Source of the DNA: Comamonadaceae bacterium 2PF
Lineage (GTDB): Bacteria > Pseudomonadota > Gammaproteobacteria > Burkholderiales > Burkholderiaceae_C
Assembly (NCBI GenBank): GCA_005502875.1
Contig: SCMV01000016.1
Location: 1 to 64,000 of the forward strand
Direction: 5' to 3'
DNA length: 64,000 nt
Shown here: piece by piece, positions 2,989 to 64,000 of the stretch
Position numbering within the stretch: position 1 is the first letter of the stretch
Layout: each line of letters starts with the position of its first letter
Program-made: the position numbers and the translations under genes
The notes under the pieces: generated by a model
What the model was told of the DNA's origin: nothing
Seen by the model: the letters and a program-made list of their open reading frames with translations, nothing else
The model's database searches: none

Positions 2989-4839
2989 ATGCCCCAATAC
3001 CGTTCCCGCACCTCGACCGCCGGCCGCAACATGGCGGGTGCACGCGCCCTGTGGCGCGCCACCGGCATGAAGGACGGCGACTTCGAAAAACCGATCATCG
3101 CCATCGCCAACAGCTTCACGCAGTTCGTGCCTGGCCACGTTCACCTCAAAGACCTGGGTCAGTTGGTCGCCCGTGAGATCGAAGCTGCGGGCGGTGTGGC
3201 GAAAGAATTCAACACCATCGCGGTCGATGACGGCATCGCCATGGGCCACGGCGGCATGCTGTATTCGCTGCCCTCGCGCGACCTGATCGCCGACAGCGTC
3301 GAGTACATGGTCAATGCCCACACGGCCGACGCGCTGGTGTGCATCTCCAACTGCGACAAGATCACCCCGGGCATGCTGATGGCCGCACTGCGCCTGAACA
3401 TCCCCGTGGTCTTCGTCTCCGGTGGCCCGATGGAAGCCGGCAAGGCCAAGATCGAGGGCAAGGTCATCGCCCTGGACCTGGTGGACGCCATGGTCAAGGC
3501 CGCCGACAAGAACTGCTCCGATGAGGAAGTGGCCATGGTCGAGCGCTCGGCCTGCCCGACCTGCGGATCGTGCTCCGGCATGTTCACCGCCAACTCGATG
3601 AACTGCCTGACGGAAGCCCTGGGCCTGTCCTTGCCTGGTAACGGCACCATCGTCGCCACGCACGCCGACCGCGAAAAGCTCTTCCGTCGCGCCGGCCGCA
3701 CCATCGTCGACCTGGCCAAGCGCCATTACGAACAAGACGACTTCAGCGTCCTGCCGCGCAACATCGCCAACTTCAAGGCCTTCGAGAACGCTGTGGCGCT
3801 CGACGTGGCCATGGGCGGCTCGACCAACACCGTGCTGCACCTGCTGGCCGCCGCCCGCGAGGCCGAGGTGCCTTTCACGATGGCCGACATCGACCGCATG
3901 TCGCGCAAGGTGCCTTGCCTGAGCAAGGTGGCGCCGGCCGTGCCCGACGTGCACATCGAAGACGTGCACCGCGCCGGCGGCATCATGTCCATCCTGGGCG
4001 AGTTGGCCCGTGGCGGCCTGCTGCACACCGACGTGCCGACCGTGCACAGCAAGACCATGGCAGAGGCCATCGCCAACTGGGACGTCACCGTCACGCAGGA
4101 CGAGGCGGTGCACACCTTCTACAAGGCGGCGCCCGGTGGCATCCCCACGCAGGTGGCCTTCTCGCAGGACAGCCGCTGGAAGGCGCTGGACCTGGACCGC
4201 GCCAAGGGCGTCATCCGCTCGAAGGAAAACGCCTTCACGCAGGACGGCGGCCTGGCCGTGCTCTACGGCAACATCGCGGAGAAGGGCTGCATCGTCAAAA
4301 CCGCCGGGGTTGACGAGTCCATCTGGGCGTTCAGTGGCAAGGCCCGCGTCTACGAGAGCCAGGACGATGCGGTCGAAGGCATCCTGGGTGAAGAGGTGCA
4401 GGCTGGCGACGTGGTCGTCATCCGCTACGAAGGCCCCAAGGGTGGCCCTGGCATGCAGGAAATGCTGTACCCCACGTCCTACCTCAAGAGCCGTGGCCTG
4501 GGCAAAGCGTGCGCGCTGCTGACCGACGGGCGCTTTTCGGGCGGCACCTCGGGTCTGTCGATCGGTCACGCTTCGCCTGAAGCCGCTCAGGGTGGTGCCA
4601 TCGCCCTGGTCGAGAACGGCGACACCATCGAGATCGACATCCCGAACCGCCGCATCCACCTGGCCATCAGCGACGAGGAAATGAACCGCCGCCGCGAAGC
4701 CATGGAGGCCAAGGGCCCGAACGCCTGGAAGCCGGCCAACCGCCAGCGCCACGTCTCGGCCGCGCTGCAGGCCTACGCCCTGCTGACCACTTCGGCCGAC
4801 ACCGGCGCCGTGCGCGACCTGTCGCAACTGCAACGCTGA
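2989..4839 (+). CDS. ilvD: dihydroxy-acid dehydratase
   Basis: Cytoplasmic Fe-S enzyme of valine, leucine and isoleucine synthesis. It dehydrates 2,3-dihydroxy-isovalerate and 2,3-dihydroxy-3-methylvalerate to the 2-keto acids. The length, 616 residues, equals that of Escherichia coli IlvD. Cluster cysteines are C122 in [10 protein letters not shown] and C195 in CPTCGSCSG; the flanking block GKLEG-type IlvD/Edd core is continuous. The strong match to IlvD rather than Edd comes from the SNCDK and CGSCSGM blocks. The start ATG has GGAG 7 bases upstream. It is convergent with clcA, whose stop lies only 10 bases downstream, so its terminator sits inside the clcA reading frame. Confidence 0.97.
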
Positions 4840-4849
4840 GCCTTTGCGT

Positions 4850-6235
4850 TCACCCTGCAGCCCCCGTTCGGCCCGGGTCTGCTTCAGAGGCGTCCACGAT
4901 CGTGGGCGCCTTTTTTCTTGCCGCCACGACGTTGGCCACCATCTGCCTGGCCAGTGTGTCGTAGAACGGGCGCGCGATCAGCCGAGACAGCGCAGCAGCC
5001 AGCATCGCGGAGCCCATCAGGCTCAGGACCATGGCGTGCCCATCCACCATCTCCATCACGATGATGAAAGCCGTCAGGGGGGCCTGTGTCACGGCGGCCA
5101 GGAATGCCGCCATGCCAATGGCGATGAGCACGGGCCTGGGGTCGGCAGTCAGCGAGGCGATCTCGTGGCCGATGCTTGCCCCCATCGTCAGCGAAGGCGC
5201 GAAGATGCCTCCTGGCACACCGCAGATCGCCGACAGCCAGGTGGCCAGGAAGCGCAGCACCGTGTCCAGGCCCTGGGTGGCGTCCTGGCCTTCGAGCATC
5301 TGCCGGGTGGCCATGTAGCCGCTGCCAAAGCTGTGGCCTGAGCTGGCCAAGCCGATGCTGGCCACGGCGAAGCCGCAGGCTGCGGCGAACCAGCATGGGT
5401 GAACCTGGCGAAATCGCCGAAACCGATCCTGGCCGGGGCTCAAGGCCCAACTGAGCAGGCGCGAGAACAGGCCCCCGGCCGCGCCACAAGCCAGCGTGAC
5501 AGCCAGCCCTGGCATCAGCAAGGACCAAGCGATGGCCTCGACCTGGATGCGACCGAAGTAGGTGCCGCTGCCGAATGCCGAGACGGCAACCAGGCCCGCG
5601 ATCACGATGGCGGCGATCAACAGGCCGCTGGCGCGGTCTTCCGGTCGGCGCGAGAGCTCTTCGATGGCAAAGACCACGCCGCCCAGGGGCGTGTTGAAGG
5701 CAGCGGCCACGCCCGCCGCACCGCCCGCCACCAGCAAGCCTCGCTCGTTGAAGTGGCTGCGTTGCGGCAGCCATCGCCGCGCGTGGTGCATGACCCCAGC
5801 TGCCACTTGCACCGAGGGGCCTTCGCGGCCAGTCGACAGGCCGGCGAGCAAGCCGGCGGATGTCAGCAGCACCTTGGCCAGCGACAGCTTCAGGGACACG
5901 AACAGACCTCGCTGCTCTGGCAGGATGTCTTCGTGTTGCGCCGCCAGCACCTGCGGGATCCCCGATCCTGCCGCCGCCGGCACCCAGCGCCGAGTCAGCC
6001 AAACGATGGCGGCGGTGAGGGCAGGGGTCCAAAGCAGGACAAGCCAGGGCTGTGCCTCGTGCAGCTTGAAGAAGGTGTCAAGCGCGGCCTCGCTGAGCCA
6101 CGTCAGGGCGATCACGGCCAGTCCGGACAGCACCGCGAAACCGATGATCACCAACCGTGCGGCCCAGCTGCGCCAATCGGATAATTCACGGCTGAGCGAA
6201 TCGGCCGCGCCGATTTCGGAAGAAGGCTCGCTCAT
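4850..6235 (-). CDS. clcA: CLC-family chloride channel/antiporter
   Basis: Inner-membrane CLC protein of 461 residues with all three selectivity-filter signatures: GSGIP, GREGP (containing the gating glutamate) and GGIFAP. About ten hydrophobic helical segments are spread through the protein. There is no C-terminal CBS pair. Bacterial homologues exchange Cl- for H+ in acid resistance or pH homeostasis; channel versus exchanger behaviour cannot be settled here. It is divergent from the adjacent MarR gene, which may regulate it (inference). The 3' end overlaps the ilvD terminator. Confidence 0.92.
   Translation of the reverse strand: MSEPSSEIGAADSLSRELSDWRSWAARLVIIGFAVLSGLAVIALTWLSEAALDTFFKLHEAQPWLVLLWTPALTAAIVWLTRRWVPAAAGSGIPQVLAAQHEDILPEQRGLFVSLKLSLAKVLLTSAGLLAGLSTGREGPSVQVAAGVMHHARRWLPQRSHFNERGLLVAGGAAGVAAAFNTPLGGVVFAIEELSRRPEDRASGLLIAAIVIAGLVAVSAFGSGTYFGRIQVEAIAWSLLMPGLAVTLACGAAGGLFSRLLSWALSPGQDRFRRFRQVHPCWFAAACGFAVASIGLASSGHSFGSGYMATRQMLEGQDATQGLDTVLRFLATWLSAICGVPGGIFAPSLTMGASIGHEIASLTADPRPVLIAIGMAAFLAAVTQAPLTAFIIVMEMVDGHAMVLSLMGSAMLAAALSRLIARPFYDTLARQMVANVVAARKKAPTIVDASEADPGRTGAAG
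4888..4916 (+). terminator. ilvD terminator nested in the 3' end of clcA
   Basis: AGGCGTCCAC and GTGGGCGCCT (one U-G wobble) surround a GATC loop and run into TTTTTT. It starts 49 bases after the ilvD stop and lies wholly inside the convergent clcA coding region. Confidence 0.8.
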
Positions 6236-52313: not shown

Positions 52314-52439
52314 TGCGGTTCCCCATGCAGGGGGGCACGCATCGCACATCATTCCCTCAGGATCTGCTCAAAGGGTTTTCCACGTTCTCCCTCAGGGTGG
52401 TGTCATATGAACAATCCCCGCCATGACAACAACGGGAGG

Positions 52440-52455
52440 CGCGACAGAAGTCGCG
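52440..52455 (+). promoter_or_regulatory. hairpin against the ribosome site of the CotH-like gene
   Basis: CGCGAC-AGAA-GTCGCG is a perfect 6-bp stem ending one base before the AGGTG ribosome site (52456-52460) and 9 bases before the ATG. It may set translation efficiency. The 150-base gap upstream of the gene shows no clear promoter. Confidence 0.4.
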
Positions 52456-52463
52456 AGGTGAAC

Positions 52464-54380
52464 ATGGCTCAAAGACTGTTGGCAACTGCGTCCGTGCTCG
52501 GGGGCTTGTTGCTCCTGTCGGGGTGCAACGAAACCACGGTGTCTGGTGAGGTGCTGGCAGAGGTCGCCGAAGGCGCCTGGGTTTGCCTCGACACCAACGG
52601 CGACCTGCTGTGCGACGAGACCGAGCCCGGCGGGGCGGTTCAGGCCGACGGTGCATTCCGGTTCCTGCGTCCGACCCTGATGCCCGTGCACGCCATGAAC
52701 CTGGTGGTGCAGGTGCCTGATCAACCGACCCAGACGCCGCCGGTCGGCCCCTTGCCCGGCGGTGTGTTCGTGCTGGCCACGCCGGCGCGTGACGATGCCG
52801 CGCTCGTCACGGGCTTGAGCACCTTGTTGGCCATGCATCGGCCGGGGCCGGGGCAGGGCCAAGACGAAGACATCACCCTCGTCGAATCCAACTTGAAGCG
52901 AACGTTGGGCCTGCCTGAGGACGCCTCATTGTTGGCTGACCCAGGCGCTGACGCGGAGCATGGCTTGAAAAGGCTCGATGGCTTGGTCGTGACGGCCCTG
53001 CGTCAGGGCGCCCAGGCGCACTCGCAGACCTTGGCTGGCGACGCGGGGCCATCTGGGGCATCCACGCGGGCAGCTGCCGAGGTGCTGGCGCCCGTCATCG
53101 GGCGCTACACCCAGGCCGAGACCGGGCAGTTGCTCCACACCGTCGGTGAGCGCACGCTGGTGCACGAAACCAAGGCGGCTTTTGCGCCGCACAACTGCGT
53201 CACGTTGCCCCCCCCAATGGTCGTCATCGACACGGCGGGCGGAGCGCCGATCCTGGACAAGGAAAACTACGTTCAGGCCCAACTCACGATGGGGGCCACG
53301 GCGGACTTCCCTCAGGCCCTGAACTTGTCGACCAAGGTTCGCGGACGCGGTAACTCCACCTGGAACCTGGAGAAAAAACCCTATCGCCTGAAGCTGGACA
53401 GCAAAAGCAAGGTGCTGGGGATGACGTCGGACAAGGATTGGGCCTTGTTGGCCAACCACACCGACAAGACCATGCTGCGCAACGCCGTCGCGCTGTGCCT
53501 GGGACGTGTGATGGGCATGGCCTACACGCCTGCGGCGCACCACGTTGAGGTGCGACTCAACAACGATTTCCTGGGGCTCTATCAACTCGTCGAGCACGTC
53601 AAGGTCGCTGATCACCGCGTGAACATCGGTGCTGCAGCCACCAGCCCTGACGATGTCGATGCCGGGTTCTTTCTGGAGATCGACGCCAGGCTCGATGAAA
53701 CCCACTGGTTTCGCAGCCTGAACATGCGCCCGTACACCGTGAAGTCAGATGTCCTGGATGCCGTTCAGGTCACGCGCATCCGCGATGTGGTCAACGCCAT
53801 GGAGTCAGCCCTGTTTGGCAGCGATCATCGGGATCCGGCCATCGGCTATGCCGCACACCTGGATGTCGAGGCCCTGGTCGATTTCTACCTGATCAACGAG
53901 TACCTGCGCAACAACGATGCGTTCTACTCCAGCACCTTTGTCTACAAGGGGCGAGGGGGCAAACTCACGTTCGGGCCGCTCTGGGATTTCGATTTGGCGG
54001 CCGGAAACGTGAAGTTCAACGACAACGCTTCGCCCATCGGGTGGTGGCTGCGTGAGCCGAGCAATGTCAATGCGTCCTACATCAAACAACTGCTCACAGA
54101 CCCCGTTTTCGAGCAGCATGTGAAGGCCCGATGGCAGCACTTGAGGCAGCAACTGCCAGCTTTGCAGGCTTACATCCAGCAAAGCGCCGAAGTCCTGCAG
54201 GCCAGCCAGGCGCGCAACTTTCAGCGCTGGGACGTTTTGAACACCCCCATTTCGCCCAGTCCCCTGGCGTTGGGCAGCTACGAGGCGGAGGTGTCTCACC
54301 TGCGAACCTGGTTGGCGCAGCGCGCCGTCTGGATGGATGAGCAGCTGTTGCCATCGCCAGTGGCATTGGCATTGCCTTGA
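52464..54380 (+). CDS. CotH-kinase family lipoprotein
   Basis: 638 residues. N-terminal lipoprotein signal with lipobox LSGC (C21). Residues ~37-55 have a Ca-binding-like repeat with two cysteines (DTNGD, CDETEP). From about residue 270 the CotH kinase fold: KVRGRGNSTW, KKPYRLKL, HTDKTMLRN, LYQLVEHVKV, FFLEID and the metal-binding WDFD near 507. Bacillus CotH phosphorylates spore-coat proteins; here it would be a secreted, membrane-anchored kinase-like or carbohydrate-active protein of unknown substrate. ATG at 52464 chosen over 52407 by signal peptide and AGGTG. Confidence 0.82.
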   Translation: MAQRLLATASVLGGLLLLSGCNETTVSGEVLAEVAEGAWVCLDTNGDLLCDETEPGGAVQADGAFRFLRPTLMPVHAMNLVVQVPDQPTQTPPVGPLPGGVFVLATPARDDAALVTGLSTLLAMHRPGPGQGQDEDITLVESNLKRTLGLPEDASLLADPGADAEHGLKRLDGLVVTALRQGAQAHSQTLAGDAGPSGASTRAAAEVLAPVIGRYTQAETGQLLHTVGERTLVHETKAAFAPHNCVTLPPPMVVIDTAGGAPILDKENYVQAQLTMGATADFPQALNLSTKVRGRGNSTWNLEKKPYRLKLDSKSKVLGMTSDKDWALLANHTDKTMLRNAVALCLGRVMGMAYTPAAHHVEVRLNNDFLGLYQLVEHVKVADHRVNIGAAATSPDDVDAGFFLEIDARLDETHWFRSLNMRPYTVKSDVLDAVQVTRIRDVVNAMESALFGSDHRDPAIGYAAHLDVEALVDFYLINEYLRNNDAFYSSTFVYKGRGGKLTFGPLWDFDLAAGNVKFNDNASPIGWWLREPSNVNASYIKQLLTDPVFEQHVKARWQHLRQQLPALQAYIQQSAEVLQASQARNFQRWDVLNTPISPSPLALGSYEAEVSHLRTWLAQRAVWMDEQLLPSPVALALP

Positions 54381-54425: not shown

Positions 54426-56864
54426 TCAGTGGGCTTCGGCCAATTCGGGCGAGGGCTGCTTCGCTGGGGGCACCCAACTCGACACCCACTGCGGCAGTTG
54501 GTCTGCAGGCATGGGCTTGGCGATCCAGTAGCCCTGGGCGATGTCGCAACCCAGCTCGCCCAGCAGCCCCCAGGCGGCACCTTCTTCCAGGCCCTCGGCC
54601 GTCACCTTCAGGCCCAGGTTGTGTGCCAGGTCGACCACCGACCGCACGATCTTCGCGTCCTGGGCATCGTGGTGCATGTTCATCACGAAAGAGCGGTCGA
54701 TCTTGAGTTCGTGCACGGGCAGGCGTTTGAGGTAGGCCAGCGACGAGTACCCTGTGCCGAAGTCGTCGATCGACATCTGCAGGCCCATGTCGTGGAACTG
54801 CTCGAGTGTTTGCTGGGCGCGATTGGGGTCGTCCATGATCGCGCTTTCGGTGATCTCCAGGCACATCGCGTTGGGCGGCACCTGGTGTTCGTGCAGCAGC
54901 GCGCTCACGCGGGCAGGCAGTTCGGGGTCGATCAGGTCGCGGGCTGAAAGGTTGATCGACATCTGCAGGGGCAGGCCCTGGTCGGCGCACCGTCGCCAGG
55001 TGCGCATGGACTCGAGCAGCAACCAGGTGGTGATCTGACGGATGAACCCCGATTGCTCGGCAAAGGGGATGAACAGGCCAGGGGGCACCATGCCACGCGA
55101 GGGGTGTGCCCATCGGATCAGGGCTTCGGCGCCGACGACGCGGCCGGTGCGAAGGCACACCTTGGGTTGCAGGAACAGGCGAAACTCGTTTTGCTCGACC
55201 GCTTGTCGAAGCTCGCCGAGCAGAGACAGCGCTGCGTCCGATTTGACGTCGAGCTCCGGGCGGAAAATGGTGTGGCCGGTCTGCGCCTGTTTGGCGTGGT
55301 GCATGGCCAGCTCGGCGCGTCGCATGAGGCTGGCGTCATCGGTGGCGTGTGCCGGGCAGGCTGCGATGCCGATGCCTGCGCCCAGGTCCACCGTGCTGCC
55401 GTTGAGGTCGATGGTGGCCTCCAGGCCTTGCTGAACCTGCCTGGAAACCGCCAGCGCGTCTTCGATGCTGCCGCGCTCAAGGAGGATGGCGAATTCATCG
55501 CCACCCAGCCGGGCCACCGTGTGATCGGCCCCGTTCAGCCGCTCGAGCAGCAGGCGCGCGACGCGTTGCAGCAACTGGTCGCCTGCGTCGGTGCCCAGCA
55601 CGTTGTTGACATGCCTGAAGCGATCGAGGTTGAGCATGACGATTGCACACCCTGTGTTCTGTGCGACGGCCCGTGCCACGGCATCGCGCACGGCGATGGA
55701 AAAGCCTGCGCGATTGGGCAGGCGAGTGAGGGCGTCGGTCAGGCCACTGCGGCGGATCTCGCTTTCGCGCTGGTGAACGGCCTGGCGCATCGACTCGAAG
55801 GCCTCGGCGAGCTCGCCGATTTCGTCGTCGCCGTGTCGCGGGATGGGGGCATTGAAATCACCCCGAGCCAGGCGAGAGGCCAGGCGTGTGAGGCTGGTCA
55901 CGGGTGTGGTGATGCGGCGTGCGGTCATGGCGCTGCCGATGGCGAACGCGAGCACGCCAAAGCCATTGAGCGCGAGGATGGCCAGCTGCAGTTGCTGAAA
56001 TGGCGCGACGGCGGCGTCCACGGAGCGCAGCATCACGGCATAGATGGGCACCTGAGGGTCGGCGCCGAGAGAATGCAGCCGCGCCACGTGCAGGCCATCC
56101 GGCAGCTCGAATGACATGCGGTTGGCGCCCGTGGCCGCCGACGCCGACGCTGCGGGCATCCACTGGCCCAGCAGAGATTGGCGGGCGTCATCGCTCATCA
56201 GCGACAGGGCCGCCTGCCAGCCGCCTGCCTGGGTGCGCGTGACGATCACCAGGTTCATGGCGGTGAGCTGCGTCATGTCGCGAACCAGGCGCTCGTCGAG
56301 CTGGAAGCCCATCACGACCCAACCGATGGTCAGCGGCGCCCGGATCGGCACGGCCACCAATTGGTGCACCTGCTTGCCAATGGACACGATCAAGCCTGAA
56401 GCGCCAGGGTCCTCGGTGGACTCTGCTTGCCGAATGGCGCTTTTGACCCGTCCAGCCATGTCGCTCGATGGGGGCTTGGTGCTTGCCTGAATCGCGCCTT
56501 GGGCGTCGGTGATGATCGAGAAGCTGGCTCCTGCTCGCTCGCCGTGGTTCTCAAGGGCCGACACCAGGGTTTCGGTGTCGCCGCTGGAGAGGGCTTCGCG
56601 AAAGCCGTAGTCCGCCGCCAGCAGCCGGGTTGACTCGCTCAGGTGGGTGGCGCTTTGTCGCAGCAGGCGCCTGAAGACCTGCTCGCCCAGGTCCAGGGAG
56701 GCGCCCAGCAGTTCTCGGGCGTTGTGATCGATGCTGCGTTGCACGAGCGCAAAGGTGACGACCTGCACCAGCAACAGCAGGCCCAGGAACAGCGCGACGA
56801 TGCGAAACGCCAGCCGGCGTCGCAGGGGGAGCGCTTCGACCTGGGTGCCGCCTTCGGTGTTCAT
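54426..56864 (-). CDS. membrane-bound GGDEF-EAL cyclic-di-GMP protein
   Basis: 812 residues. Transmembrane helices near 20-40 and 308-330 bracket a periplasmic sensory domain of ~265 residues; then HAMP (about 331-385), GGDEF domain with intact RLGGDEF near 453, and EAL domain with AEALIRW near 580 and DDFGTGYSS. Both catalytic motifs look intact, so it may make or degrade c-di-GMP, or one domain may be regulatory. The ATG overlaps the stop of the cupredoxin-like gene (ATGA), hence translational coupling. Last gene of the globin/cupredoxin/c-di-GMP unit. Confidence 0.92.
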   Translation of the reverse strand: MNTEGGTQVEALPLRRRLAFRIVALFLGLLLLVQVVTFALVQRSIDHNARELLGASLDLGEQVFRRLLRQSATHLSESTRLLAADYGFREALSSGDTETLVSALENHGERAGASFSIITDAQGAIQASTKPPSSDMAGRVKSAIRQAESTEDPGASGLIVSIGKQVHQLVAVPIRAPLTIGWVVMGFQLDERLVRDMTQLTAMNLVIVTRTQAGGWQAALSLMSDDARQSLLGQWMPAASASAATGANRMSFELPDGLHVARLHSLGADPQVPIYAVMLRSVDAAVAPFQQLQLAILALNGFGVLAFAIGSAMTARRITTPVTSLTRLASRLARGDFNAPIPRHGDDEIGELAEAFESMRQAVHQRESEIRRSGLTDALTRLPNRAGFSIAVRDAVARAVAQNTGCAIVMLNLDRFRHVNNVLGTDAGDQLLQRVARLLLERLNGADHTVARLGGDEFAILLERGSIEDALAVSRQVQQGLEATIDLNGSTVDLGAGIGIAACPAHATDDASLMRRAELAMHHAKQAQTGHTIFRPELDVKSDAALSLLGELRQAVEQNEFRLFLQPKVCLRTGRVVGAEALIRWAHPSRGMVPPGLFIPFAEQSGFIRQITTWLLLESMRTWRRCADQGLPLQMSINLSARDLIDPELPARVSALLHEHQVPPNAMCLEITESAIMDDPNRAQQTLEQFHDMGLQMSIDDFGTGYSSLAYLKRLPVHELKIDRSFVMNMHHDAQDAKIVRSVVDLAHNLGLKVTAEGLEEGAAWGLLGELGCDIAQGYWIAKPMPADQLPQWVSSWVPPAKQPSPELAEAH

Positions 56865-57481
56865 GGTTTGCTCGCGCTCCCGAGTCGGATGACACGTGGC
56901 CCGCCGGCGGCCTGGGCTTTGAATCCCTGGCGCTGAGGCGGTTGCTTGTCGCCCATTTGCGGGTGCCATGCCTGAACGGTGTGATCTCCTGCTGGCACCT
57001 CCAGCGTGGCGACCCCCGCCTTGTTGGTGATGGCAAAGTGCGGCGTGTTGACCACGTGGATGAATGCCGTCATGCGGTCATGGATGTTGCAGCCCAGGAT
57101 GGCTGTGCCAGCCTTGTCGAACACCACGGGGGCAGCAGGTGTGCCCGCATAGAGCTTGATCTCGAACGGTTTGGTCGACGAGAACGAATAGATGTGGTGC
57201 CGGATGGTGTCGAAGTTCGGAAAGCTGACGGCCGTGCCGGTTTGAACAACCAGCAACGTGGGCACGAAGCTGCGATCGCGTTGACCCATTTCTGCCTGGG
57301 TGCCCGGCGCGGCGGTGGGCTTGCCGCCCGCCACCTCGATGGAGACCACGGCGTCGGGCAAGGGTGAGCCGTTGGCGTCCAGAACGGTCACGCTCAGAGG
57401 CGCTGCGATGGCCTGCGCGCACGCCAGGCCCAGCAGTGCCTCGGTGAGCAGGGGCGGCCGCGAGGACTTGGTCTGTGGCAT
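56861..57481 (-). CDS. periplasmic cupredoxin-like protein (methylamine-utilization-type)
   Basis: 206 residues: signal peptide (to about 27, IAAP), a carboxypeptidase-regulatory-like strand set, then a cupredoxin-like fold with the type-1 copper pattern: H95 or H96 in RHHIYSF, C131, H134 and M137 in GCNIHDRM. Relatives are annotated only as methylamine utilization protein by association. Possible role: copper redox sensor or electron carrier for the GGDEF-EAL protein. Overlaps that gene by 4 bases and follows the globin gene by 12. Confidence 0.8.
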   Translation of the reverse strand: MPQTKSSRPPLLTEALLGLACAQAIAAPLSVTVLDANGSPLPDAVVSIEVAGGKPTAAPGTQAEMGQRDRSFVPTLLVVQTGTAVSFPNFDTIRHHIYSFSSTKPFEIKLYAGTPAAPVVFDKAGTAILGCNIHDRMTAFIHVVNTPHFAITNKAGVATLEVPAGDHTVQAWHPQMGDKQPPQRQGFKAQAAGGPRVIRLGSASKP

Positions 57482-57493
57482 GCCTGATGCCCC

Positions 57494-57961
57494 TCAGCGA
57501 TCTGCTGCGACCATGTCGCGGCGGGTGGGGGCCAGCCTTCGCAAGAGCTCGTTCTTGGCGCCCTGGGAGACGCCCGCGCGGTCGAGCTCCTCTCGCAGGA
57601 TTTGCACGGTGGCTTCGAACTCCGAGCCTCCCAGGCCCAGGTCGGCGTGTGACTTGCGCATCGTTTCGCCCTCGTAGACGCAGGGGCCATCTGCCGCCTT
57701 GCAGAGGTATGCCGACAGGCTGACCGAGAGCGTGCGCAGGTTGATGCCATCGAAGGTGCGCTGGGTGCGCGGATCGGTGGCCATGCGCTGCAGCGTTGCG
57801 CGGCTGATGGATTCGATGCCTGCGACACCACCGAGTTGCTGGTACAGCGGCGTGGCAGGAGGGGGGCTGCTGCACCCCACCAGGTGAAGCAGCAAGGCGA
57901 GCGGAACCAGCGCCAGGCCGAACCGGCGCCCGAAGCGTGAACGTTTTGCAGGGTGTGGCAT
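57494..57961 (-). CDS. truncated-hemoglobin (group 1) lipoprotein
   Basis: 155 residues. Lipobox LVGC (C30) after a basic start and hydrophobic segment, so the globin is membrane-anchored in the periplasm; most truncated globins are cytoplasmic. Globin part from ~residue 40 (LYQQLGGVAGIE) with the proximal His H105 in MRKSHADLGL and two Cys (C87, C94) near the haem. Predicted ligand: O2 or NO. First gene of the three-gene unit. A GTG at 57970 is a longer alternative. Confidence 0.82.
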   Translation of the reverse strand: MPHPAKRSRFGRRFGLALVPLALLLHLVGCSSPPPATPLYQQLGGVAGIESISRATLQRMATDPRTQRTFDGINLRTLSVSLSAYLCKAADGPCVYEGETMRKSHADLGLGGSEFEATVQILREELDRAGVSQGAKNELLRRLAPTRRDMVAADR

Positions 57962-58014
57962 GGTCGTCACTCGTTGGCAATGATCGCCACTGTGTCAGTT
58001 TCGGGCATGGGTGT

Positions 58015-58054
58015 TTTCTCGTGAACGGGGCGTTGACGGGCCTATTTCTCGTGA
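58015..58054. promoter_or_regulatory. 10-bp direct repeat in the divergent globin/DUF3034 promoter region
   Basis: TTTCTCGTGA occurs at 58015-58024 and again at 58045-58054, start to start exactly 30 bp, about three helical turns. A TTGACG (-35-like) sits between them at 58033-58038. This looks like a pair of binding sites for one regulator controlling the DUF3034 gene and possibly the divergent globin unit. Confidence 0.5.
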
Positions 58055-58121
58055 TGTCTGCCTCATGTTCAGGCGAAGATGCGTCCACCCAGCGATGGCT
58101 GGCCGGCTGGAGGATCTGTCG

Positions 58122-59012
58122 ATGAACGCAACTTTTTCACCCTTGACACCCAAGCGCGTGACCCAGCGCCTGCTGGCCCTGGCGTGGCTGCTTGTTGCCA
58201 CCACCTCCTGCTGGGCGGGCGATCGCTTGCTGGGCACATCGGGCGTGTCCCAGGTCGAGGGCGCGGCCGGTGGCGGCCTCACGCCATGGGCTGTCATCGG
58301 CGGCAACGGCAGCAGCGACCAGGTCGGCGCCTCTGCCTACGCCACCCACATTCGCACGCAGGGCAAGTTCAACCTGAACATCCAGGGCGTGGCCGTCGGC
58401 GTGAAGAACCGCGTCGAGGTCTCCATGGCGCGTTGGAGCTTCAAGTTCAGCGACACGGTGCCCGGCAAGAGTGCCCAGATGAACGTGCTGGGCGCCAAGG
58501 TGCGCGTGCTGGGCGATGCCGTCTATGACCAGGACGTTTGGTGGCCGCAGGTGAGCGTGGGCTTTCAGCACAAGCACAACGAAGATTTCAAGCTCGTGCC
58601 CACCTTGCTGGGGGCCACACGGGGCTCGGACACCGACTGGTACGTGGCCGCCACCAAGGTTTGGCTGGGTGCAGCCTGGGGCCGCAACGTGTTGGGCAAC
58701 TTGACCTTGCGTGCCACGCGGGCCAACCAGTTCGGGATCCTCGGGTTCGGTGGAGACCTGGGCAACCGACACCAGTTGATGCCCGAAGCGAGCCTGGCGG
58801 TGCTGGTGCGCGACGACCTGGCCGTGGGCGCCGAATGGCGGGCCAAACCCGACCGTCTCAGCGCCTTCAAGGAAGAGAACGCCTGGGATGCCTTCGTGGC
58901 GTGGTTCCCGCATCGCAACCTGAGCCTGACGGCGGCTTGGCTGGAGCTGGGCAACATCGCCGACAAGCCGAACCAGCGCAGCCTGTACCTGTCGGCGCAA
59001 GTCGGTTTCTGA
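58122..59012 (+). CDS. DUF3034 outer-membrane protein
   Basis: 296 residues. Signal peptide to about 34 (SCWAGDR), then alternating hydrophobic/polar beta strands with many aromatic residues and a terminal Phe (SAQVGF), the hallmark of BAM-inserted outer-membrane barrels. It belongs to DUF3034; function unknown. GGAGG ribosome site 8 bases before the ATG. Divergent from the globin/cupredoxin/GGDEF-EAL unit, an association that I recall from other betaproteobacteria. Confidence 0.82.
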   Translation: MNATFSPLTPKRVTQRLLALAWLLVATTSCWAGDRLLGTSGVSQVEGAAGGGLTPWAVIGGNGSSDQVGASAYATHIRTQGKFNLNIQGVAVGVKNRVEVSMARWSFKFSDTVPGKSAQMNVLGAKVRVLGDAVYDQDVWWPQVSVGFQHKHNEDFKLVPTLLGATRGSDTDWYVAATKVWLGAAWGRNVLGNLTLRATRANQFGILGFGGDLGNRHQLMPEASLAVLVRDDLAVGAEWRAKPDRLSAFKEENAWDAFVAWFPHRNLSLTAAWLELGNIADKPNQRSLYLSAQVGF

Positions 59013-60949: not shown

Positions 60950-62680
60950 TCAGTTCACGCAGGTGCGGTTCTTGCCCGTGCGCTTGGCCTCGTACAGGCC
61001 GATGTCGGCGCGCTCCAGCGCGGCCTCGATGGGCTCGCCGGGGCGGTAGGCCGTAACCCCCGCCGAGAAGGTGATGAACACCTTGTGCTCGTCGTGGGTG
61101 AAAAACTCCGCGCTGAGCGTGCGCTGCAGCCGCGTCAGCGCCTGCTGGCCTTCGTCGGCCGGCGTGTCCGGGAGCATGACCACGAACTCCTCGCCGCCGT
61201 AGCGCGCCACCACGTCCACCGGGCGCAGGCATTCGCTGACCCGCCGCGCGAGGAACTTCAGGGCCTCGTCGCCGGTCTGGTGTCCCAGCTGATCGTTGAG
61301 CTTCTTGAAGTTGTCGACGTCGAGCAGGCCGATCGCCAGCGTCGTGCCCTGGCGTTCAACGCGCGCTTGCTCGGCCTCGAAAGCCCGCATCATGCCGCGC
61401 CGGTTGGCGATCTGGGTCAGCGGGTCGGTGGACACCTCGTCGGAGAGCTTGCGGATCTCGTCTTCGAGCGTCTTCACGCGCTCGCTCAAGGCGTGGGCCT
61501 TGCTGTGCTCTTCCTGCAGCTTGACCTGGGTCTGGGCGACCACCGACTGCACCGAGCGGCTTTCGGCCACCATCTCGCGCACCACGCCGGTCAGGCTTTC
61601 GAGCGAGTCGGCCTGGTCGATGGTGTCGGCGTAGCGGCCCAGGTTGGACTGGAATCGGTCGGTGGTGCTGCCCAACTCGCCGATCTCCTGGAGCATCTGC
61701 TGGATGAGTTGCTTGAGGGCTTCGCGCGCGTTTTCGCGTTCGAGTTTGAGTTGCTGTTGCTTGATGCGCGCGTCATCGAGCAGTTGCTGAACATGGCGCA
61801 AGCCTCGGCTGTCGATGCCTTCCGAGAGCTGGTGGCGCATCGCCTGGACCTGACCTTGCGCCCAGCTCTCGTCCTCTGCCAGGTCGACCAGGCTGTCGGT
61901 CAGGGACTGGCACAGGCCCATGAGCTGATCGAGCAGGCGATGGCGTTGTTCGATGATGCCGCGCGCCTGGGCGCAGGCCTCGTTGACGCTGGATTGGGCC
62001 TGGACGGCGGCCGTGAGCGCCTGTGCCGTGGCCTGGGCGCGTGGGCTCGCTGACGCAGGGGGCAGCGCCACTTGCACCGTTCGCACCAGCTCGTCGACGG
62101 CGGTGAGTGCACTGGCGGGCCAGCCTGATGCCGATGGCGGCGTCTGCTGACCTGGCGTCGTGGGGTGGGTCGAGCTCGCGCTCAGCGCCTCAGGTGGCTT
62201 CTGCGCCGCCGGCGCTGCAGCGACGAGGGGCTGGGCCTCGGGCGATGCAGCCATCGCGTCTGCCGTCCCATCGTCTTCGAGCGGGGCGTTGTCCAGGGTG
62301 TCGCTGTCCCAGCTTTGCACCAGCTGGCTCAGGCGCTGGTGCAAGCGTTGGCCCGAGCTCTTGCTGCCTTCGAGCACACGCTGCAGGCTGTCCTTCTTGC
62401 GCGCCGCAGTCCACTGGCGCCCACCGCGCTCGGCGCCACGCAAAATGCGGCCGATCAGCTTGGACCAGCGCTCGCCTTCTTCGGCCTGGGTGCTGGCTTG
62501 GCTGGTGGCATCGGATGGCGAGGCCTTGTCCCGTGGCTTGTCGGCTCCGTTGGCATCGGATGACGGCACGCCCGACTCGGCCTCGTAGGCCTTGCGGTAG
62601 TTCTCGGGCGTGGGTTCGAGCCTTTGCTCGGCGAGACGCCGCAGGGCGGCCTTGGCCAGGTTCGCGGGGGGCTGGGACAT
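60950..62680 (-). CDS. diguanylate cyclase with long coiled-coil N-terminus
   Basis: 576-residue soluble protein. Residues 1-~200 are Ala/Pro/Ser-rich and poorly ordered with a conserved-looking start (LEPTPENYRKAYEAE); ~200-415 are heptad-like, probably coiled coil. The GGDEF domain has an intact active site GGEEF (495-499) and an allosteric I-site RPVD (486-489), so c-di-GMP synthesis with product inhibition is predicted. It starts 4 bases after the stop of the GGDEF-EAL gene, in one operon with it. Convergent with nnrD (5-base gap). Confidence 0.93.
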   Translation of the reverse strand: MSQPPANLAKAALRRLAEQRLEPTPENYRKAYEAESGVPSSDANGADKPRDKASPSDATSQASTQAEEGERWSKLIGRILRGAERGGRQWTAARKKDSLQRVLEGSKSSGQRLHQRLSQLVQSWDSDTLDNAPLEDDGTADAMAASPEAQPLVAAAPAAQKPPEALSASSTHPTTPGQQTPPSASGWPASALTAVDELVRTVQVALPPASASPRAQATAQALTAAVQAQSSVNEACAQARGIIEQRHRLLDQLMGLCQSLTDSLVDLAEDESWAQGQVQAMRHQLSEGIDSRGLRHVQQLLDDARIKQQQLKLERENAREALKQLIQQMLQEIGELGSTTDRFQSNLGRYADTIDQADSLESLTGVVREMVAESRSVQSVVAQTQVKLQEEHSKAHALSERVKTLEDEIRKLSDEVSTDPLTQIANRRGMMRAFEAEQARVERQGTTLAIGLLDVDNFKKLNDQLGHQTGDEALKFLARRVSECLRPVDVVARYGGEEFVVMLPDTPADEGQQALTRLQRTLSAEFFTHDEHKVFITFSAGVTAYRPGEPIEAALERADIGLYEAKRTGKNRTCVN

Positions 62681-62684
62681 GGTT

Positions 62685-64000
62685 TCAGCGGGGCACGCTC
62701 ACCAGGCGCGATGCATGTTCGTTCGACAGGTTACCGAGGCGAGGCAGGGTCTGGCCCTGCTGGGTGTCCTGCAGCCAGCGTTCGACGTCGGCGGCAGACA
62801 TGGGACGAGCGTACAGGAAGCCCTGGCAGATGTGGCAGCCCAGGTTGTAGAGCACTTCCATCTGTGAGAGCTTTTCCACGCCTTCGGCGACCACGCGAAG
62901 CCCCAGGGCCCGCGCCAGCGCGATGATGGCCGAGACGATGGCCGAGCTTTGAGGCGTGTCACCCAGGTCGCGCACGAAAGAGCGGTCGATCTTGAGCTCG
63001 CTGATCGGCAGGGTCGTCAGGTAGGACAGCGACGAATAGCCCGTGCCGAAGTCGTCGATCGAGATCTCGGTGCCCAGCTGGTTGAGTCGGTGCAGCGAGG
63101 GCACGACGCCCTGAAGGTCTTTCATCAGGCCGGTTTCAGTGATCTCGAGTTCGATGGCGCGTGGCGGCACCTGGCGCGCTTGCAAGATGGCCTCGATCTT
63201 CTCGACCAGGTCGCTTTGCTCGAACAGGCGCGAGGGCAGGTTGACGGCGATGGAGGCGTCGAAGCCGAAGTTGCGGTGCCACTCGGCGGCCTGGCGGGCT
63301 GCCTCGTCGATGGCCCACAGGCTCATGTGGTTGATCAGGCCGGTGGCCTCGGCCAGCGGGATGAAGTCGCCCGGGGGCACCAGCTGGCCATTGCGGTTCC
63401 AACGCATCAGGGCCTCGGCGCCGACCATGCGGTTGGTGCGCACGTCGATCTTGGGCTGGTAGTGCAGCACCAGTTCCTTGCGCTCCAGGGCCTTGTGCAG
63501 GGCGGTGTCGAGGTCCAGCCGCACGCGGCCCTTGGAGGCCAGTTGCGGGTCGTGCAGCTGCGCGGTGTTGCGGCCCTGGCTCTTGGCCAGGTCCATGGCC
63601 ACGTCGGCGTTGCGCAGCAGGTCGGCCACGTTCAGGCCGTGCTGCGGGAACACCGCCACGCCCACCGAGGCCGTGATGAAGCACTCCTGGCCGGCCACCA
63701 TCATCGGCTCGCGCAGGGCGTCGAGGATGACGTAGGCCGTGGCCATGGCCTCGCGCTCGTTGCTCACCTCGGGCAGCAGCACGACGAACTCGTCGGCGCC
63801 CAGGCGGCCCACGGCTTCGAGGGTGCGGTGGGCCCGGTGTCCGTTGGCGTCCAGGTTGCCTTCGATGATCTGGTCGGAGTGGCGCACGCAGTTGCGCAGT
63901 CGCCGCGAGACCTCGATGAGCAGCTCGTCGCCAGCGTGGTGCCCCAGGTTCTCGTTGATGATCTTGAAGCGGTCCAGCCCCACCTGCAGCAGCGCCACGC
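62685..64000 (-). CDS. GGDEF-EAL protein (5' end beyond the window)
   Basis: At least 437 residues are visible; the gene continues past base 64000. The GGDEF domain is degenerate (GADEF in RLGADEFVVLL) and carries a short insert (NLDANGHRAHRTLE) before it, while the EAL domain has GAEALMRW, EITETGLM, DDFGTGYSS and KIDRSFV. Prediction: a phosphodiesterase whose GGDEF half is regulatory or inactive as a cyclase. It precedes the active diguanylate cyclase by 4 bases, giving an operon with opposing activities. Confidence 0.9.
   Translation of the reverse strand, partial: VALLQVGLDRFKIINENLGHHAGDELLIEVSRRLRNCVRHSDQIIEGNLDANGHRAHRTLEAVGRLGADEFVVLLPEVSNEREAMATAYVILDALREPMMVAGQECFITASVGVAVFPQHGLNVADLLRNADVAMDLAKSQGRNTAQLHDPQLASKGRVRLDLDTALHKALERKELVLHYQPKIDVRTNRMVGAEALMRWNRNGQLVPPGDFIPLAEATGLINHMSLWAIDEAARQAAEWHRNFGFDASIAVNLPSRLFEQSDLVEKIEAILQARQVPPRAIELEITETGLMKDLQGVVPSLHRLNQLGTEISIDDFGTGYSSLSYLTTLPISELKIDRSFVRDLGDTPQSSAIVSAIIALARALGLRVVAEGVEKLSQMEVLYNLGCHICQGFLYARPMSAADVERWLQDTQQGQTLPRLGNLSNEHASRLVSVPR

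Follow-up and report, generated by a model that had tools for sequence, protein, structure and literature searches.

A conserved unit of DUF3034, globin, cupredoxin and GGDEF-EAL genes in Comamonadaceae bacterium 2PF and related bacteria

The window analysed here is a stretch of 64,000 nucleotides from Comamonadaceae bacterium 2PF (assembly GCA_005502875.1, contig SCMV01000016.1, positions 1 to 64,000), a genome of 4.18 Mb in 95 contigs. Four genes in its last part, for an outer-membrane beta-barrel of the family DUF3034, a truncated globin, a cupredoxin and an enzyme of cyclic di-GMP (c-di-GMP) metabolism, are the subject of this work. Three of them are packed on the minus strand. The globin gene (57494..57970), read from Pfam and alignments as a group-1 truncated globin lipoprotein with the lipobox LVGC by eye, ends 12 bases before the ATG of the cupredoxin gene (56861..57481; 206 residues, signal peptide by eye), the stop of which overlaps the start of the enzyme gene (54426..56864) in the four bases ATGA. 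The enzyme, of 812 residues, has the Pfam architecture dCache_3 (E 2e-19, 70.6 bits, above cut-off), HAMP, GGDEF (9.5e-31) and EAL (1.4e-73). The DUF3034 gene (58122..59012) lies divergently on the plus strand. Its longest open reading frame runs from a GTG at 58011 to 59012; the ATG at 58122 is the likelier start, because an apparent signal peptide, judged by eye, begins right there. The minus-strand packing and the divergent barrel had been described in an earlier note on this DNA, together with a c-di-GMP enzyme bearing a sensor domain; the open reading frame coordinates, the PF11231 match with a 12-strand model, and the dCache_3 domain with an intact EAL site bear out each of these.

Between the globin and DUF3034 genes lies a divergent intergenic region (57971..58121), in which a promoter scan found no sigma-70-like promoter. 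In 164 stretches upstream of members of the families, FNR-type boxes (TTGAY-N4-RTCAA) were found exactly in none and with one mismatch in 3, which does not exceed background.

Profile searches for the four families covered 397 genomes drawn evenly from the phylum. As the profiles derive from members of the cluster and scoring was confined to the top first-look candidates, absences may be overcounted. The thresholds were chosen post hoc, at E<=1e-14 for the cupredoxin (65 of the 92 genomes found at E<=1e-3) and E<=1.9e-26 for the globin (48 of 114 at E<=1e-3). At this setting the cupredoxin was carried by 65 genomes, DUF3034 by 46, the cluster-type globin by 48 and the sensor domain by 61. All 46 DUF3034 genomes hold the globin, linked in 45 of them with gaps of <=386 bp, and 45/46 hold the cupredoxin, linked within 6 kb in 40. 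Cupredoxin and sensor domain occur together in 60 genomes, 54 times linked. All four families are present in 44 of the 46 DUF3034 genomes. The globin figure depends on the threshold in one direction only: at E<=1e-20 there are 54 globin genomes and DUF3034 accompanies the globin in 46/54, while the reverse, 46/46, is independent of it. Fisher p-values, with kinship ignored, are <=1e-41 by genome and <=6e-25 by genus for the three pairs, and at the level of genera the cupredoxin is present in 29/30 DUF3034 genera (p 3e-25). Not counted in these lists are a second, stop-bearing DUF3034/globin pair of genome G118 and a sensor match of 52 residues in the genome of the window. The four-gene linkage thus exceeds chance by far. 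The co-occurrence analysis, which the earlier note had named as a check, comes out in favour of one conserved unit, and the possible refutation named there, a lack of conserved linkage outside this genome, is contradicted.

The order of the genes within this unit is not fixed. As read from the 397 genomes, 25 loci have cupredoxin, enzyme, DUF3034 and globin in this order on one strand, and 2 more have it with an additional enzyme copy. In 6 loci the globin and DUF3034 (globin<DUF3034<) diverge from cupredoxin and enzyme (cupredoxin>enzyme>), 2 are of the window type, and 1 reads DUF3034>globin>cupredoxin>enzyme>. Four layouts that each hold all four genes argue for joint function. Gene order was also read in a scan of named genomes, by profiles built there, from the best 80 of at least 594 relatives (loci L027-L106). 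DUF3034 divergent from globin, cupredoxin and enzyme is one betaproteobacterial layout, and the single-strand order cupredoxin-enzyme-DUF3034-globin is seen in the Pseudomonas, Pseudoxanthomonas and Gilvimarinus loci holding all four genes, as well as in Herbaspirillum. Genome context lends good support to a conserved envelope module of four proteins that has c-di-GMP as its output.

The partial loci indicate that the unit is hierarchical, the pair of cupredoxin and phosphodiesterase being its base and DUF3034 with globin an accessory to it. DUF3034 and globin are mutually dependent and form a near-obligate pair. Barrel and globin are rare without the cupredoxin, which is in turn usually paired with the phosphodiesterase. 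Five lone DUF3034>globin pairs were found in the 397 genomes, four of them with cupredoxin and enzyme elsewhere and one, in G118, with neither. Lone cupredoxin>enzyme pairs number 19, some with a DUF3034-globin pair elsewhere in the genome, and cupredoxin and sensor occur without any DUF3034 in 16 genomes (60 less 44). The remainder are five single mixed cases including DUF3034, one enzyme>cupredoxin pair, and lone genes. The G118 pair lies at C1:544459-545709 (L177) in a genome without a cupredoxin or sensor match; the stop-bearing second pair is on contig 3.

The same hierarchy can be followed within the genus of the window genome, taken as Aquabacterium and represented by 25 genomes including that of the window. 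DUF3034 and globin are both present in 18/25 and both absent in 7/25, one of the 18 (G010) being counted on a globin that is a weak fragment at a contig end. In a first scan of 41 relatives, with a cupredoxin threshold of E<=0.001, the cupredoxin was matched in 23/41 genomes, and in 22/25 Aquabacterium with the window genome included, 2 of these weakly. The enzyme is present in 24/25, the sole miss being G015. In ten Aquabacterium loci examined for this question (L167-L176) the enzyme lies away from the cupredoxin, 4/10 of them with a gene in the stretch that we take to be holA-like. Such a holA-like gene also flanks the cupredoxin-enzyme pair in nine loci of Roseateles, Methylibium, Sphaerotilus and allied bacteria (L031, L032, L037, L038, L039, L044, L048, L049, L052). 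In the enzyme tree, L167-L176 fall together in a single clade (100/100) that is nested within the cupredoxin-linked enzymes and adjoins the Methylibium clade (85/91, on an unstarred branch); L180 and L181 are linked loci and do not enter this reading. The recurring holA-like neighbour and the nested position suggest that in Aquabacterium of this type the enzyme probably kept the older site and the cupredoxin moved to the globin.

The four proteins can be assigned to classes with differing precision. The DUF3034 protein matches PF11231 with an E-value of 4.7e-99 (331.5 bits against a cut-off of 25). Its structure model has a mean predicted local distance difference test (pLDDT) score of 83.2 and 12 long strands, with the first 21 residues poorly modelled. 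In a fold search it comes closest to FapF, the top match (E 3.2e-7), and to Omp33, OmpG and sugar channels. With FapF and further barrels of 12 to 14 strands DUF3034 shares its predicted barrel class, with 12 long strands; it differs from FapF in gene context and shares 8-14% identity with it, at template modelling (TM) scores of up to about 0.6. TM-scores by target length are 0.70 for NanC and 0.73 for VhGalP.

The globin matches Bac_globin (E 4.9e-13), and the nearest solved structure is 1dlw (E 7.2e-12). In the window protein the proximal His108, the CD1 Phe73 and two cysteines, Cys90 and Cys97, can be recognised. Among 42 aligned globins the proximal His and the CD1 Phe are each kept in 39/42 and both cysteines in 42/42; in a second set of 29 rows, which includes the window, the counts are 29, 28 and 29. 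Position B10 is Leu, Ile, Val or Met in 42/42 and 29/29 and never Tyr, and a Tyr stands one position further on in 4/29. Group-1 truncated haemoglobins carry a distal Tyr at B10. Without it, the globin is not of the textbook group-1 type. It shares fold, proximal His and CD1 Phe with trHbN of group 1 and differs from it in being secreted and often a lipoprotein, in its two invariant cysteines and in the absent B10 Tyr. A lipobox pattern was matched in 31/42 globins, a count that may include some false matches (for example L045, where a plain signal peptide fits better) and has at least one miss (L104, which reads as a lipoprotein). Family, proximal His and lipobox agree with the lipid-anchored truncated globin proposed earlier, with the correction that it departs from the textbook group-1 kind. 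Elsewhere in the window genome (G000) two more truncated globins are encoded, at C64:450-812 and C63:8448-8804, both scoring above the cluster globin against Bac_globin. Adjacent pairs of small globins are found in several genomes of family f58, for example G096 (C44:10914-11768), with no DUF3034 match in these genomes.

No Pfam or NCBIfam family matches the cupredoxin above cut-off, and its assignment draws on the ligand motif, a weak profile match in the PDB (NirK, E 0.0073) and a structure model. The predicted copper ligands are His95, Cys131, His134 and Met137, as the His-Cys-His-Met pattern noted earlier had implied. They are invariant in 80/80 aligned proteins, for some of which the locus had been located by a pattern that contains Cys, His and Met. 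The ligand set with its C-x2-H-x2-M loop recurs in 30/30 best profile matches and in 20/20 relatives found by phmmer, without that pattern. The 30 rows include the window and leave out the weak matches L025 and L026 and ranks below the best 30. The AlphaFold model (pLDDT 92.7) has amicyanin as its top Foldseek match in the PDB (E 5.8e-6, probability 1.00, TM 0.64 by target length); the best matches are amicyanin, pseudoazurin and NirK, with 17-26% identity in the best ten and partial coverage. C-x2-H-x2-M is the ligand spacing of amicyanin. The protein is accordingly placed among predicted type-1 copper proteins of the amicyanin-like class. It resembles amicyanin and pseudoazurin in fold, ligand set and loop, but it is longer, and its C-terminal part weakly matches an Ig-like family. 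In nine loci (L042, L054, L057, L072, L076, L082, L083, L085, L097), all without a linked DUF3034-globin pair, one gene family lies directly upstream of the cupredoxin; both members tested, from L054 and L083, are DUF4394 (PF14339). A gene of this type is a possible alternative input partner.

Two hydrophobic segments can be recognised by eye in the enzyme, which is predicted from its domains to be a c-di-GMP phosphodiesterase of the inner membrane that carries its sensor domain in the periplasm. Of 68 aligned EAL domains, among them one truncated row, 67-68 retain the catalytic EAL positions. The aspartate of GGDEF is conserved in 59/69, and in the window both the GGDEF and the EAL motifs are intact. 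As some relatives have a degenerate GGDEF motif, the conserved output is the predicted EAL phosphodiesterase. CHASE4 matches the sensor below its cut-off (E 0.0029; 18.2 bits against 26.2).

If the cupredoxin were an ordinary electron donor to methylamine dehydrogenase or NirK, that enzyme would be expected in the same genomes. Both were searched for in 61 genomes, namely 60 of the 65 cupredoxin-positive ones and G118 (G061, G062, G082, G092 and G223 were left out). The methylamine dehydrogenase light chain (PF02975) was found in 2/61 and was absent in 59/61, including the window genome, which does not fit an amicyanin in the proper sense, the donor to this enzyme. NirK was found above cut-off in 4/61, the window genome falling below it; counting matches under the cut-off gives 37/61, the window genome among them, and the additional 33 are taken for other multicopper proteins. 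As a general electron partner, neither of these two enzymes, the only ones searched for, is supported. A general fifth member of the unit was likewise not found within flanks of up to 8 kb in the 80 loci. Once open reading frames lying over the four families were removed, large clusters dissolved to <=15/80 loci; the commonest family (15/80) reads by eye as an ABC-transporter ATPase and the next (13/80) as a LysR regulator.

These observations can be brought together by taking the four genes as one envelope-spanning signalling module that feeds the c-di-GMP phosphodiesterase, a reading we hold tentatively, at close to an even chance. It starts from the linkage, the co-occurrence, the shuffled order, the conserved ligand and catalytic residues and the predicted folds; from these we infer the loading with haem and copper, the locations, the direct contacts, the direction of information and the identity of the signal. 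DUF3034 would be a 12-strand channel in the outer membrane. The globin would be a periplasmic haem protein, in many species a lipoprotein and probably held on the outer membrane, and the cupredoxin a soluble periplasmic type-1 copper protein partnering the dCache_3 domain of the GGDEF-EAL enzyme in the inner membrane. A compound or redox change arriving through or near the barrel may be registered by the globin and relayed to the cupredoxin as an altered redox or metal state. The cupredoxin would then set the activity of the EAL phosphodiesterase, and c-di-GMP would be lowered or spared. The chain proposed in the earlier note, with haem and copper proteins as inputs and gas or redox state as a possible signal, is in this respect partly supported. 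A narrower version is more doubtful: here the periplasmic blue-copper protein would act as the ligand of the dCache_3 enzyme and switch it, and a secreted haem globin docked on the DUF3034 channel would determine the copper or redox state of that protein.

Several points weigh against a signalling module of this kind. Across 13 aligned sensor domains, none of the His, Cys or Met positions is invariant, though an Asp is. Three of the 42 globins (L031, L033 and the extra copy of L030 at 4542-5882) have lost both the proximal His and the CD1 Phe, which makes haem dispensable in some lineages; to judge from these residues, such globins, encoded within the four-gene unit or next to it, may be free of haem. 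DUF3034 and globin occur without the cupredoxin in G118 (1/397) and in the 53%-complete Aquabacterium genome G015. Four other Aquabacterium genomes (G002, G008, G019, G023) have the enzyme with the cupredoxin absent in two and weak in two, which argues against the enzyme depending strictly on the cupredoxin, and in this genus the phosphodiesterase often stands at a separate locus. Gene fusions between the four families were not found in the loci scanned (matches in 163 loci), and the co-occurrence p-values carry no correction for phylogeny.

The barrel, globin and cupredoxin could instead perform envelope chemistry, either electron transfer or the detoxification of nitric oxide, peroxide or copper, with the c-di-GMP enzyme as a co-regulated companion adjusting lifestyle. 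The folds nearest to the cupredoxin belong to amicyanin and pseudoazurin, which are electron carriers, and several Aquabacterium keep the phosphodiesterase apart from the other three genes. Two usual partners of such carriers are rare, however (2/61 and 4/61), cupredoxin and sensor do without DUF3034 in 16/397 genomes, and every other gene family stays at or below 15/80 loci; we regard this explanation as unlikely. Acquisition of copper or haem is less probable again. Here the barrel would admit the nutrient, globin and cupredoxin would bind it, and the loaded cupredoxin would report supply to the phosphodiesterase. An outer-membrane barrel fold and conserved metal ligands agree with this, as do published copper- or haem-binding CHASE4 GGDEF-EAL proteins, according to the part of the source available (PMC13277305). 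The top neighbour in 15/80 loci, however, reads as an ABC-transporter ATPase rather than a dedicated metal importer, and the barrel is nearest to FapF, Omp33, OmpG and sugar channels.

With FapF as its best structural match (E 3.2e-7), the barrel might work in the manner of FapF and export a matrix component, with the timing under the phosphodiesterase and the metal proteins. With identity of 8-14%, equal or better TM-scores for NanC and VhGalP, and no export-substrate gene generally recurrent near the 80 loci, this is very improbable. Chance neighbourhood or shared descent alone is hardly credible. The unit-bearing genomes are indeed partly related and the statistics ignore kinship, but co-occurrence of 46/46, 45/46 and 44/46, four full layouts and a spread over 30 genera contradict it. 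The signalling module is the preferred reading.

Among known systems, the CHASE4 GGDEF-EAL proteins of Pseudomonas aeruginosa sense iron, haem and copper, as described in the available part of PMC13277305. IsmP/PA2072 and PA0847 from that source are likewise inner-membrane c-di-GMP proteins with a periplasmic sensor tied to iron, haem or copper, but their ligand reportedly binds the enzyme itself, while the window has separate cupredoxin, globin and barrel genes (PMC13277305, in part). The IsmP type also has a CHASE4 sensor, in contrast to the dCache_3 of the window enzyme. A PDB search with the window sensor did not match 8Z84 at E<=10. The inner-membrane enzyme of the YfiBNR system is YfiN. 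The Pfam matches of the four window proteins are other families than those we take YfiB, YfiR and YfiN to belong to, and the unit was not assigned to this system. YfiBNR, a tripartite c-di-GMP system of Pseudomonas, is the closest known architecture as far as the available part of its description goes (PMC4655355): an outer-membrane lipoprotein and partners set c-di-GMP from a periplasmic signal. The window unit differs from what is given there in its protein families, in its predicted output of hydrolysis and in having an outer-membrane barrel.

No account of the four-gene unit was found in the open-licence literature, as covered by titles and the starts of abstracts, with long result lists covered in part. 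Papers returned for DUF3034 concern other subjects by their titles, and the available part of a study of truncated haemoglobins of iron oxidisers (PMC3770913) makes no mention of this linkage. The earlier statement that no such pathway is described holds to this extent; it is tempered by the published haem and copper sensing through CHASE4 GGDEF-EAL proteins (PMC13277305, in part).

C-di-GMP is the signal deciding between swimming and biofilm life. DUF3034, a class of secreted globins and an unnamed cupredoxin family gain a functional context, all being tied to its control. If the signalling module is true, it would imply that bacteria employ soluble metalloproteins as periplasmic messengers in lifestyle decisions. 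Its narrower version, with the cupredoxin as the ligand, would be without precedent in the open-licence literature searched as a relay of copper and haem across the whole envelope into c-di-GMP.

Further genes adjoin the unit in the window. Convergent with the GGDEF-EAL gene lies a gene for a CotH-kinase-domain protein (52407-54380; PF08757) with a lipobox-like N-terminus. About 2 kb past the four-gene cluster, at 60950-63998, two further open reading frames carry GGDEF or GGDEF-EAL motifs, and matches to the GGDEF/EAL profiles likewise adjoin the cluster in L027 and L028.

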